Part shown: positions 52,049 through 55,949 of the stretch, in pieces | How positions within the stretch are numbered: position 1 is the first letter of the stretch | Layout of the letters: each line of letters starts with the position of its first letter | Assembly (NCBI RefSeq): GCF_030814715.1 | Contig: NZ_JAUSVO010000001.1 | Coordinates: 434,001 to 498,000 of the forward strand | DNA from: Kaistia dalseonensis | GTDB taxonomy: Bacteria > Pseudomonadota > Alphaproteobacteria > Rhizobiales > Kaistiaceae | Length of the DNA: 64,000 nt | Reading direction: 5' to 3' | Translations under genes and position numbers: made by a program | Notes under the pieces: model-generated | What the model was told of the DNA's origin: nothing | Seen by the model: only the letters and a program-made list of their open reading frames with translations | The model's database searches: none

Positions 52049-53302
52049 TCAGCTCGGGCGGACGAGGACGTGCTTCTTGCGGCCGAGCGAGAGCTTGACC
52101 ACGCCCTCGGGCGTCAGCAGGGCAGGGCCGATCAGCAGCTTCTCGTCGGTCACGGCCGCGTCGTTGACGCGGAGGCCGCCGCCCTTGATCTGGCGTCGCG
52201 CCTCGCCGTTCGAGGCGACGAGGCCGCTCTGAACGAAGAGCGACAACACGCCGATGCCCTCCAGGAATTCCGACGCCGCGATCTCGATCGTCGGCAGGCT
52301 CTCAGCCAGAGCGCCTTCCTCGAAGGTGCGGCGCGCGGTCTCGGCCGATTCCTCGGCGGCGGCGCGGCCATGGAGGAGGGCGGTCGCCTCGGTCGCGAGG
52401 ATCTTCTTCGCCTCATTGATCTCCGAGCCGCCGAGCCTTTCCAGCCGCGCGATCTCATCCATCGGCAGCGTGGTGAAGCGCTTCAGGAAGCGGATGACGT
52501 CGGCATCCTCGGTATTGCGCCAGTACTGCCAGAAGTCATAGGGGCTGAACATGTCGGCGTTGAGCCAGACCGCGCCCTGCGCCGTCTTGCCCATCTTGGC
52601 GCCGGAGGCGGTCGTGAGCAGCGGCGTCGTCAGCGCATGAAGCTGGTGCGTGCCCATGCGGCGGCCGAGATCGACGCCGTTGACGATGTTGCCCCACTGA
52701 TCCGAGCCGCCCATCTGCAGGTTGCAGCCGGTGCGGCGGGCGAGCTCGGCATAGTCATAGGACTGGCAGACCATGTAGTTGAACTCGATGAAGCTCATTT
52801 CCTGCTCGCGCTCGAGCCGGAGTTTGACCGAATCCATGGTCAGCATGCGGTTGACCGAGAAATGGCGGCCAACCTCGCGCAGCATCTCGATATAGCCGAG
52901 CTTCAAGAGCCAGTCGGCATTGTCGACCATGATCGCGTCCGTCGGCCCGTCGCCGAAGGTGAGCACCTTGGAGAACACGCCCTTGATGCTGGCCTTGTTG
53001 GCCTCGATCTCCTCGACCGTGCGCATCGGGCGGGATTCGTCCTTGCCCGAGGGGTCGCCGACCATGGTGGTGCCGCCGCCCATCAGTGTGATCGGCTTGT
53101 TGCCGCTCTGCTGCAGCCAGTAGAGCAGCATCATGGTCAGGAAGTTGCCGATATGGAGCGAGGGCGCCGTGCAGTCATAGCCGACATAGCCGATCGCCTT
53201 CCCCTGCGCGGCGAGCGCGTCGAGGCTCTCGAAATCCGAGCATTGGTGGATGAAGCCACGCTCGTTCAGGGTGTTCAGGAAATCGGACTTGTAGGCGGTC
53301 AT
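52049..53302 (-). CDS. tyrS: Tyrosyl-tRNA synthetase
   Basis: A 417-residue class I aminoacyl-tRNA synthetase. The HIGH motif is HIGN (residues 50-53), preceded by GYDCTAPSL; tyrosine binding uses [26 protein letters not shown]; the KMSKS loop is KMGKT. A C-terminal S4 RNA-binding domain ([22 protein letters not shown], about 350-417) binds the tRNA. It follows the DAHP synthase gene on the same strand after 94 bases. No tRNA-sensing leader was seen directly before tyrS, so the aromatic attenuator upstream of DAHP synthase may influence it by read-through. Confidence 0.96.
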
Positions 53303-53396
53303 GGCGGAAAAGGTCCTTGGACGGCGATTTGGCACGCTGTTTAGCAGCCGGGACGGCAAATTCCATCCCGGTTCGATGTCGAAGCGGCGGCGTTCT

Positions 53397-54497
53397 TCAG
53401 CCGTTCGCGGCCAGTAGCTGCGGGTCGAGGCTGCGCGAGGCGATCACCGCGCGCCGTCCGGACACGGCTTCGGCCAACCGCTCCAGCACCGCGACCGAGC
53501 TCTCCCAGTCGATGCAGCCATCGGTGATGCTCTGCCCGTAGACGAGCGGCTTGCCGGGCACGAGGTCCTGGCGCCCCGCGACGAGATTGCTTTCCACCAT
53601 GACGCCCATGATCCGGTCGTCGCCGGCCTCGAGCTGGCGGGCAATGTCGTCCACGACGAGCGGCTGGTTCTCCGGCTTCTTCGACGAATTGGCATGGCTC
53701 GCATCGATCATGATGCTGGGATTGAGCCCGGCCTTCGCGACTTCCCGCGACGCCGCATCGACGCTCGCCGCGTCATAGTTCGGCGCCTTGCCGCCGCGCA
53801 GGATGATGTGGCAATCGCCATTGCCGGCCGTCGCGGCGATCGCCGAGCGGCCGTTCTTGGTCACGGCCAGGAAATGATGCGGCTGCGAGGCCGAGAGCAC
53901 CGCGTCGACCGCGATCTTCACATTGCCGTCGGTGCCGTTCTTGAAGCCGACCGGGCAGGAGAGGCCCGAGGCGAGTTCGCGATGAACCTGGCTTTCCGTC
54001 GTCCGCGCGCCGATCGCGCCCCAGCCGACGAGGTCGGCGAAATATTGCGGGGTCGTCATGTCGAGGAACTCGCAGCCCGCTGGCAGGCCGAGATCGTTGA
54101 TCTCGAGCAGCAGCTTGCGCGCGAGGCGCAGGCCCTTGTTGATGTCGAACGAGCCGTCGAGGTCCGGGTCGTTGATCAGGCCCTTCCAGCCGACCGTCGT
54201 GCGCGGCTTCTCGAAATAGACGCGCATCACGATCTCGAGCCGGTCGCCGAGCCGCTCGCGCAGCGGCACCAGCCGCTTGGCGTATTCGATCGCCGCGGCG
54301 GGATCGTGGATCGAGCAGGGGCCGATGATGACGACGAGGCGGTCATCGGTGCCCTGGAGGATGTCGTGAATGGCGCCGCGCGCCCTGGTCACGGTCGCGC
54401 TCGCCGCATCGGTGCGGACGAATTCGGCCATGATCTCGGCGGGCGTGCTCAATTCATGGATTTCGAGGATGCGGAGGTCGTCTGTTGTATCAGGCAC
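53397..54497 (-). CDS. aroG: 3-deoxy-7-phosphoheptulonate (DAHP) synthase, class I
   Basis: A 366-residue class I (AroF/G/H-type) enzyme that joins phosphoenolpyruvate and erythrose 4-phosphate, the entry step of aromatic synthesis. IGPCSIHDP holds the metal-binding Cys, [21 protein letters not shown] binds PEP, KNGTDG follows, and [18 protein letters not shown] and GVMVESNL carry the remaining metal ligands. GTG 54497 is taken as start because AAGGAA stands about ten bases before it and the product then has family length; the frame is open to 54644 but runs through the attenuator. The isozyme letter is not certain. Expression is probably set by the upstream aromatic leader. Confidence 0.93.
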
Positions 54498-54533
54498 GGT
54501 CGGGTTCCTTGGGGTTGGCCCTCCCGGCGGCAT

Positions 54534-54562
54534 AAAAAAAGCCGCCAAGGAGCTTGGCGGCT
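54534..54562 (-). terminator. Attenuator terminator in the DAHP synthase leader
   Basis: On the minus strand AGCCGCCAAG (54562-54553) pairs perfectly with CTTGGCGGCT (54549-54540), loop CTC, followed by seven Ts. It ends 37 bases before the GTG of DAHP synthase and after the leader stop codon, so it is a premature terminator inside the leader transcript. Confidence 0.85.
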
Positions 54563-54589
54563 GTCGGGATGATCTTGCTCGGTTTTTCT

Positions 54590-54673
54590 TTAAGTCGAGC
54601 GCGCCCCTACCTCCGCCAAAGGCATCGGATAGCCATAAAACCAAAAGTAATACGGGGCGGAAGCACGGATCAT
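54590..54673 (-). CDS. Aromatic leader peptide of the DAHP synthase attenuator
   Basis: A 27-codon open frame, ATG 54673 to TAA 54590, beginning MIRASAP and then YYFWFYGY (codons 8-15), where seven of eight residues are Tyr, Phe or Trp. Ribosome stalling on these codons would sense charging of all three aromatic tRNAs. Codons 18-21 contain TTTGGCGG (54620-54613), which can pair with CCGCCAAG of the terminator's first arm (with one G-U pair) and so prevent termination. The 27-base gap to the terminator arm fits transcription attenuation. The run, the competing arms and the gene behind it agree with one another. Confidence 0.85.
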   Translation of the reverse strand: MIRASAPYYFWFYGYPMPLAEVGARST

Positions 54674-54848
54674 GAGCCGCATATAGATCAGGCCGCGGCG
54701 TTTGTCACGTCCCGCGTGCAATGCTCGTCATGGGCCGGCCGGCCATGGTGCAGCGGCGACACAGTCTGGTCCTCCCCCGTGAAAACCGCTATCCCGGCTT
54801 TCGGCGTCCTGCCCTGAGGGCGCGCAGAGCGGGAGCCGGGGACGAGCG

Positions 54849-55949
54849 ATGCGCATGATGATCGTCGCGGGGCTGATGAGCGGCACGTCGATGGACGGCG
54901 TCGACGGCGCCCTGATCGCGACCGATGGCGAGGAGGTCGAGGCCTTCGGCCCGACGACGTTCCGGCCCTATTCCGACGACGAGCGCGCGGTCCTGCGCGC
55001 GGCACTGGCGCGCGCGACGACGCTCGACGATCGGGCGGCGCGGCCGGACGTCCTCGCGGAGGCCGAGCGCATCATCACCGATGCTCATGCCGAGGCGGTC
55101 GAGGCGCTGCTGGCGCGGGCCGATGTCGATGCCGGCCGCGTCGGGCTGGTGGGCTTCCACGGCCAGACCGTGTTTCATGCGCCGGCGCGGCGACTGACGA
55201 TCCAGATCGGTGACGGCGCCGCGCTCGCGAGGCGCCTCGGCATTCCGGTCGTCTATGATTTTCGCGCCGCCGACGTCGCATCGGGCGGGCAGGGGGCGCC
55301 CTTCGTTCCCGTGTTCCATCGCGCGCTGGTGCGGGCGGCCGGCCTCGCGGGCAATGTCGCCGTGGTCAATATAGGCGGCGTCGGCAATGTGACGCGCATC
55401 GGCGCCGACGGTTCGGTCGTCGCCTTCGATACCGGGCCGGGCAATGCGCTGATCGACGATCTCGTCCATGAGCGCACCGGCGCGGCGATGGACCGGGACG
55501 GGGCGCTATCGAGCGCCGGCACGGTGCAGCTCCAGAGCCTCGCCGAACTCATGGACGATCCCTGGTTCAGCCTGCCGCCGCCGAAATCGCTCGATCGCGA
55601 CGCCTTCTCGCGCCGGCCTGTCGCGCGCCTGTCGACGGCGGATGCGGCTGCGACGCTCGCCGCCTTCACGGCCGAATCGATTGCGCGCGCCGTCGCGCTC
55701 GCCGGTGGCGCCGATCGCATCATCGTCTGCGGCGGCGGTGCCCATAATCCGGCCATTCTCCGCCTGCTCGCCAAGGCGAGCGCGGCCGAGGTCTCCACGG
55801 CCGACGATCTGGGCTGGTCGGGCGATTTCATGGAGGCGCAGGCCTTCGCCTATCTGGCGGCCCGCAGCCTCGCCGGCCTGCCGCTCAGTTTCCCCGAGAC
55901 GACGGGCGTGCCGTATCCGATGCCGGGCGGCGTGCTCGAGCGGCCGTGA
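54849..55949 (+). CDS. anmK: Anhydro-N-acetylmuramic acid kinase
   Basis: A 366-residue sugar kinase that hydrolyses and phosphorylates 1,6-anhydroMurNAc from cell-wall turnover to MurNAc-6-phosphate. GLMSGTSMDGVDGAL (8-22) is the ATP/sugar-binding signature; GFHGQTVFH, VVYDFRAADVASGGQGAPFVPVFH and FDTGPGNALIDD follow, and IVCGGGAHNPAILRLL lies in the C-terminal half. The length is normal. It is divergent from the DAHP synthase/tyrS unit and is the third peptidoglycan-linked function in this part of the window. Start ATG 54849. Confidence 0.96.
   Translation: MRMMIVAGLMSGTSMDGVDGALIATDGEEVEAFGPTTFRPYSDDERAVLRAALARATTLDDRAARPDVLAEAERIITDAHAEAVEALLARADVDAGRVGLVGFHGQTVFHAPARRLTIQIGDGAALARRLGIPVVYDFRAADVASGGQGAPFVPVFHRALVRAAGLAGNVAVVNIGGVGNVTRIGADGSVVAFDTGPGNALIDDLVHERTGAAMDRDGALSSAGTVQLQSLAELMDDPWFSLPPPKSLDRDAFSRRPVARLSTADAAATLAAFTAESIARAVALAGGADRIIVCGGGAHNPAILRLLAKASAAEVSTADDLGWSGDFMEAQAFAYLAARSLAGLPLSFPETTGVPYPMPGGVLERP

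Follow-up and report, generated by a model that had tools for sequence, protein, structure and literature searches.

The synthesis of the aromatic amino acids is entered through DAHP synthase, and the attenuators of the thr and ilv operons are multivalent, with one leader sensing several end products of a shared pathway. In E. coli the DAHP synthase genes are repressed via TyrR and TrpR according to a passage of PMC11802643, and an attenuation hypothesis for E. coli aroF is cited in a passage of PMC8632094. Ribosome-mediated attenuation is described for the aroR leader upstream of aroF in C. glutamicum (passages of PMC11802643 and PMC4046766, crediting Neshat et al. 2014), and in S. meliloti the RNA rnTrpL begins with the trpL ATG, and so is leaderless, and acts in trans (passages of PMC7298713 and PMC10117765). 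Here we describe the region upstream of a class I DAHP synthase gene of Kaistia dalseonensis, which lies in a window (the whole stretch of DNA analysed) of 64 kb, and we propose, with a probability of about 90%, that it encodes a classical ribosome-mediated transcription attenuator that senses aromatic tRNA charging.

The leader region and its surroundings

The gene under study is an aroG-type class I DAHP synthase of 366 aa (minus strand, 53397..54497, GTG start at 54497), which scores 539.4 bits against TIGR00034 aroFGH (cut-off 173.2) and 562.3 against NF006723 AroG, slightly below the cut-off of 568. The earlier note placed ahead of it a 27-codon minus-strand leader containing YYFWFYGY, and on re-reading its coordinates are correct. 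The leader ORF, MIRASAPYYFWFYGYPMPLAEVGARST, occupies 54590..54673 with its ATG at 54673 and the stop codon ending at 54590, and has homologues in related genomes; a second in-frame ATG at 54682 overlaps the putative -10 box. The regulatory codons 8-15 (Y Y F W F Y G Y, 54629..54652, minus strand) comprise four Tyr, two Phe and one Trp, giving seven aromatic codons of three kinds. They are preceded by segment 1 (54656..54669, minus strand), the 5' partner of segment 2 in a predicted protector stem (duplex 1:2, -24.0 kcal/mol), and followed by segment 2 itself, TTTGGCGG (54613..54620, minus strand), which forms the 5' arm of the antiterminator within the leader ORF and spans the third base of codon 18 to the first base of codon 21. 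Folding of the window RNA confirms the earlier proposal that 54620-54613 can pair with the first arm of the terminator, and it also predicts a small stem-loop over the leader stop codon (54577..54600, minus strand) within the antiterminator loop. The terminator, reported earlier as a 10-bp stem with seven Ts between the leader stop and the aroG GTG, is present as described (54534..54562, minus strand); segment 3, AGCCGCCAAG (54562-54553), is followed by the loop CTC, segment 4, CTTGGCGGCT, and a T-run, the stem-loop at 54562-54540 being a perfect 10-bp stem and the seven Ts lying at 54540-54534 with the first of them inside the stem. An AAGGA-type ribosome-binding site of aroG follows at 54510-54506.

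Upstream of the leader a putative promoter can be read directly from the minus strand (54681..54708), with GTGACA at 54708-54703 and CTATAT at 54686-54681, the latter of which we take to be an alphaproteobacterial -10 box; a generic sigma-70 scan found no promoter. The leader ATG starts 8 nt past the -10 box (seven bases between). The 31 alphaproteobacterial loci of our first set (described below) share the pattern gtgacaAa...gcta.a and a near-invariant C at position -1 of the ATG. A Shine-Dalgarno-like 4-mer upstream of the leader occurs in none of these 31 loci, in none of seven Xanthomonadales and in one of 28 others, while such a motif stands at some in-frame start of aroG in 60 of 66 genes, a more lenient count, with leaders examined at one start and aroG at any in-frame start within 60 bases. 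Judged from these sequence patterns, the leader has no ribosome-binding site and its transcript probably starts at or beside the ATG, so that it would be leaderless.

The combination of aromatic leader and terminator is real as an observation. In the 64-kb window the aroG leader (with its two nested starts) is the sole ORF of 10-45 codons with at least six aromatic codons in eight, and the only such ORF that is then followed by a terminator, whereas 60 windows generated by a first-order Markov model contain no aromatic ORF, one terminator and no ORF-terminator pair. The terminator pattern by itself is not rare, with one found against 0.4 expected in shuffles of that stretch, and the fold of the whole region is unremarkable (z -1.23; 25 of 200 shuffles fold equally well). 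The upstream neighbour, anmK, is divergent (plus strand, from 54849), and the terminator therefore cannot belong to it; service to an upstream gene is ruled out.

The next gene downstream of aroG is tyrS (52049..53302, minus strand; Pfam PF00579, tRNA synthetases W and Y), by reading a tyrosyl-tRNA synthetase. Throughout the genus the order aroG-tyrS is kept (13 of 13 loci), and in these same 13 loci (L003-L015) aroG and the attenuator lie between a divergent anmK and tyrS, as at 52049-55949 of the window. In the remaining loci tested neither tyrS nor anmK was matched near aroG within the available flanks, and the leader still accompanies aroG. A terminator scan of the window's aroG-tyrS gap found none, and were the two genes co-transcribed the same attenuator would also govern the tyrosyl-tRNA synthetase. 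The gap has features of its own, including a GCTGCTA motif common to the genus loci (by eye), which could belong to a tyrS promoter, and a long inverted repeat, GGGAAATTTC...GAAATTTCCC, in several genus members (L006, L009, L010 and L013).

The same genome also encodes a class II DAHP synthase (G000:C1:1293430-1294743). An aromatic leader was sought there and rejected, the best ORF in the 400 bases upstream having two aromatic residues in 10, and it seems that only one of the two DAHP synthases of this genome is attenuated in this way.

Conservation and distribution

In the family sample, 17 of the 28 genomes searched hold a class I aroG over the cut-off, and in every one of these the gene is preceded by leader and terminator (L003-L019). 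A protein search of named genomes yielded at least 589 loci, and among the best 80 of these a script identified leader and terminator in 49, distributed over Bradyrhizobium, Mesorhizobium, Devosia, Methylosinus, Leisingera, Dyella, Rhodanobacter, Xanthomonas, Stenotrophomonas, Burkholderia, Caballeronia, Massilia and Rugamonas. The nearest named relatives are Devosia and Bradyrhizobium, and leaders identical to those of Bradyrhizobium occur in genomes of the window's order. The script did not find the pair in the other 31 of these best 80, which include Enterobacteriaceae and their kin, Vibrionaceae, Rhodocyclaceae and Methylophilaceae, and some of which (L066 and L102) resemble degenerate forms. 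The first set of 66 leader RNAs is biased among the alphas towards close relatives and had the hairpin as a selection criterion, so that the presence of the hairpin in the alignment is partly by construction. Removal of near-identical members left 46 of the 66 in alignment A1. The earlier note had set conservation of the aromatic run and the pairing arms as the check beforehand, and both are conserved in close and distant relatives, with compensatory changes.

For searches of whole genomes we used R1, a covariance model based on 46 of the 66 leader RNAs. Since R1 was trained partly on relatives of the genomes searched, its matches and its training set are not independent, and weak members may be lost to the strict filters applied to the large samples. 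In a class sample of 337 Alphaproteobacteria genomes, drawn evenly, R1 matched nine at E<1e-10, and these are exactly the nine with a class I aroG over the cut-off; the remaining 328 had neither an R1 match at this threshold nor an aroG over the cut-off. In eight of the nine, element and aroG match share a contig and are separated by 51-152 nt, with the element upstream; in the ninth (G214) element and gene are at the ends of different contigs. A further 78 genomes of this sample gave weak R1 matches (7.7e-6 to 0.01), many of them confined to the terminator end of the model, and these were not counted. A phylum sample of 398 genomes, 225 of them with aroG over the cut-off, was searched at E<=1e-5 and gave 52 R1 matches, of which 48 are upstream of aroG (46 directly located, plus those in G559 and G433), three are pheA/pheS leaders and one (G460) is unexplained. 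This last match (G460:C87:19754-19888, E 2.6e-6) has no aroG within the 935 bases fetched and is probably a chance match. Within the phylum sample the element is present in 23 of 23 gene-bearing genomes of the window's class; outside that class only 25 of 202 gene-bearing genomes have an aroG-linked match, and aroG therefore does not need the element. The element is apparently widespread, occurring in many Alphaproteobacteria, Burkholderiales and Xanthomonadales.

On a tree of 97 AroG proteins, made by a quick method and with several long branches, the label 'leader' needs seven changes, where shuffled labels need 26.5 on average. The 31 alphaproteobacterial and seven Xanthomonadales rows, every one of which has the leader, together make up a starred group of 38. 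We note that the leader-terminator DNA of the window (54534-54673) is 79% identical to that of a Dyella locus (L027), beyond any leader of its own genus (up to 75%), and that the peptide stretch YYFWFYGYPMPLAEVGARS is identical in the two, although the AroG protein of the window groups with its own genus.

Pairing, modelled stalling and the aromatic codons

The terminator and the antiterminator both carry traces of co-variation in the 46 sequences of A1. For the terminator (3:4), 31 cells are changed on both sides, a number reached by none of 500 shuffles, and 21 of these cells share a G-C to A-U swap at a single stem position; the count of further pair types is not above that of shuffles (115 of 500). 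The antiterminator (2:3), the pairing of which played no part in choosing the sequences, pairs in 84.9% of 358 cells as against 15-52% when the arms are slid by 1-3 columns, and 12 of its cells are changed on both sides (2 of 500 shuffles), with the number of pairs showing a both-side change not above shuffles (3 versus 2.4; 249 of 500). The shuffles ignore relatedness for both pairings, and the covariation of the antiterminator is modest because the GGCGG/CCGCC core is nearly invariant. At the first variable position segments 2, 3 and 4 read T/A/T in 25 of the 46 sequences, and in two others all three arms change together, to A/T/A in L046 and to C/G/C in L071; at this same position 2:3 is broken in 12 of the 46 with letters there, and in one more with a gap. 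The protector pairing 1:2 is weakly above codon-shuffled controls (0.87 versus 0.78), and the spacer that separates segments 2 and 3 has a more stable fold than its shuffles (mean z -0.84, Wilcoxon p 2e-6), with 18 of 46 sequences below -1, one above +1, and the window's own spacer at -0.79.

The distance between the start of the last aromatic codon and the GGCGG in segment 2 is nearly constant: 39 of 66 leaders have 14 nt here, and 63 fall within 11-20 nt. In the three exceptions (L023, L025 and L050) a Trp codon lies inside segment 2. About the same distance separates the A site of a ribosome from its leading edge. When the window RNA was folded with a ribosome masked at chosen codons, an A site on any of the seven aromatic codons gave P(2:3) of 0.73-0.86 with a 12-nt mask and 0.50-0.86 with a 14-nt mask, the low value of 0.50 belonging to a stall at the last Tyr under the longer mask. 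From codon 17 onward P(2:3) was 0.00 at the five positions tested, and without a ribosome P(1:2) was 0.71 and P(2:3) 0.10. Once segment 4 is present, the terminator is favoured at equilibrium in all states tested, with P(3:4) at least 0.94 in the stalled ones, so that control must be kinetic and depend on trapping, as is generally held for classical attenuators.

Several properties of the locus are those of a classical attenuator: a short leader ORF with several end-product codons directly upstream of a biosynthetic gene, an intrinsic terminator between leader and aroG, an antiterminator that excludes the terminator through the common segment 3, and regulatory codons so placed that a stalled ribosome leaves segment 2 free. 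Transcription would begin at or very near the leader ATG. With Tyr-, Phe- and Trp-tRNA plentiful, the ribosome would cross codons 8-15 and segment 2, and the 3:4 terminator would form. A stall at any aromatic codon would hold or melt segment 1, and segment 2, starting about one ribosome edge ahead, would then pair with segment 3, leaving no terminator and allowing aroG to be transcribed; in an RNA that is not translated the 1:2 stem would form and termination would be favoured. Along with the stalling, the read-through and the start site, we infer that all three amino acids count in K. dalseonensis.

As to which amino acids may be read, of the three that the earlier note has one leader sense together, Phe and Tyr have codons in every leader checked (66 of 66 in the first set and nine of nine in the even class sample, among which the G304 leader has one Phe and one Tyr only), but Trp does not. 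The first set has Trp in the run in all its 31 alphas and all its seven Xanthomonadales, and so do all 23 alphaproteobacterial leaders found in the phylum sample (two genera supply 17 of these), but it is in only 13 of the 28 other leaders of the first set (14 if the Trp of L050, which lies in segment 2, is included). Since in the class sample only three of nine leaders have Trp in the run, we infer that a three-way OR gate would be lineage-dependent, and it is unproven. An attenuator of the same build might accordingly sense just one or two amino acids (Phe and/or Tyr), with the Trp codon tolerated and not sensed. The sparse Trp of the class sample and of the leaders outside the alphas and Xanthomonadales speaks for this, as do the make-up of the window's own run, with its single Trp, and C. 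glutamicum AroR (Phe-Tyr-Phe), which a passage of PMC11802643 reports to respond to Phe and not to Tyr availability. Set against it are the constancy of Trp in the alphas and Xanthomonadales of the first set and in the alphas of the phylum sample, and the central place of the window's Trp codon within the run, a stall at which leaves segment 2 free with P(2:3) of 0.85; we regard such a Phe- and Tyr-limited sensor as a tenable but rather doubtful reading. In the leaders Phe is written TTT in 109 of 154 codons, as against 45 of 294 in aroG (46 loci), a preference that may make decoding slower or leave the stretch without pairing.

Two further explanations depart from the attenuator itself. The short transcript could also, or mainly, act in trans as a leaderless mRNA or sRNA in the manner of S. 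meliloti rnTrpL/peTrpL, a likeness to which the scarcity of Shine-Dalgarno-like motifs ahead of the leaders and the start of rnTrpL at the trpL ATG both point; this seems unlikely to us, given that the regulatory codons and the segment 2 sequence explain the conservation of the peptide and that 48 of the 52 strong R1 matches in the phylum sample lie upstream of aroG. That the leader is a chance ORF beside an ordinary terminator, with the aroG promoter located after that terminator, is improbable in the extreme, for although terminator-like patterns are not rare, the whole region folds no better than many of its shuffles and the generic scan found no promoter, the ORF-terminator pair arose in none of 60 random windows, run, arms and spacing are conserved across Alphaproteobacteria, Xanthomonadales and Burkholderiales, and the upstream gene is divergent. 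The attenuator, with its observed anatomy, conservation, compensatory changes and near-constant spacing, is the reading that we carry forward.

Relation to described attenuators

Assignment of the element to the Rfam family Phe_leader (RF01859), which describes the attenuators of pheA and pheST, was considered and rejected, the window scoring 18.2 bits against a gathering score of 55. None of 17 aroG-leader loci reaches this gathering score, as against three of three pheA/pheS control loci. The two have in common a leader with Phe codons and a terminator, and differ in the gene served and in the Tyr and often Trp codons that the aroG leader adds. R1 for its part cross-matches, weakly, one pheS and two pheA leaders (L201, L202 and L204), all of which are Phe_leader over gathering; this suggests that the aroG and phe attenuators share design or ancestry. 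A search of 20 loci with Rfam 15 gave no gathering-level leader, T-box or riboswitch match at the element in the 17 aroG-leader loci, and in the window region Rfam matches were sub-threshold only. The four gathering matches in the 20 loci were the three Phe_leader controls and one cobalamin riboswitch about 1.2 kb from the element. This riboswitch (L104:2811-3017, 118.9 bits) lies just downstream of an aroG gene and is separate from the element.

In the accessible portions of the open-licence literature we found no report of the aroG leader, and as an attenuator it is apparently undescribed. A passage of PMC1173090 tabulates predicted attenuators from a web database, Vibrio aroA-I-alpha-Y > tyrA among them, and the aroG element may therefore sit unremarked in such lists; proteobacterial attenuator surveys of 2001 and 2004 are cited in a passage of PMC1262725.

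We think the odds lean slightly towards an old, portable and undescribed class, consisting of a leaderless ORF of 21-30 codons that reads Tyr and Phe and, in many lineages including Kaistia dalseonensis, Trp; such a class would be tied to class I aroG, would have travelled with this gene between Alphaproteobacteria and Xanthomonadales, and would have gained or lost the sensing of Trp from lineage to lineage. If this is so, a single RNA integrates all three end products at the entry to the pathway. One RNA device apparently does the job of TyrR and TrpR in numerous members of the Alphaproteobacteria, Burkholderiales and Xanthomonadales, among them Bradyrhizobium, Mesorhizobium, Burkholderia and Xanthomonas. 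That the Trp codon is naturally present in some leaders and absent from others, together with the near-constant 14-nt spacing, opens the logic of multi-input attenuation to comparison and to codon swaps, and the element could act as a sensor of aromatic starvation and is a candidate Rfam family.

Mixed-amino-acid attenuators are not unusual, and attenuators of DAHP synthase genes are a known kind. The thr and ilv leaders differ from the aroG leader in their amino acids and genes. The trpL leader of S. meliloti (rnTrpL/peTrpL) is likewise alphaproteobacterial, and its RNA begins with the leader ATG, as that of aroG probably does, but it has 14 aa, senses Trp and controls trpE(G) (passages of PMC7298713 and PMC10117765). 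The uORFC-13-1 motif of Acholeplasma aroF is likewise a predicted uORF attenuator with a terminator ahead of a DAHP synthase gene; according to a passage of PMC8632094 it is confined to Acholeplasma and unknown environmental sequences (24 examples), has a ribosome-binding site and has a U run that codes for at least one Phe, and that passage makes no mention of Tyr or Trp sensing. Closest by function is the aroR leader of C. glutamicum, which is alike in attenuating a DAHP synthase gene through a leader with Phe and Tyr codons (Phe-Tyr-Phe), and is set apart as the leader of an actinobacterium for which the passages of PMC11802643 and PMC4046766 name three aromatic codons and no Trp, as against the seven, Trp included, of the window leader.
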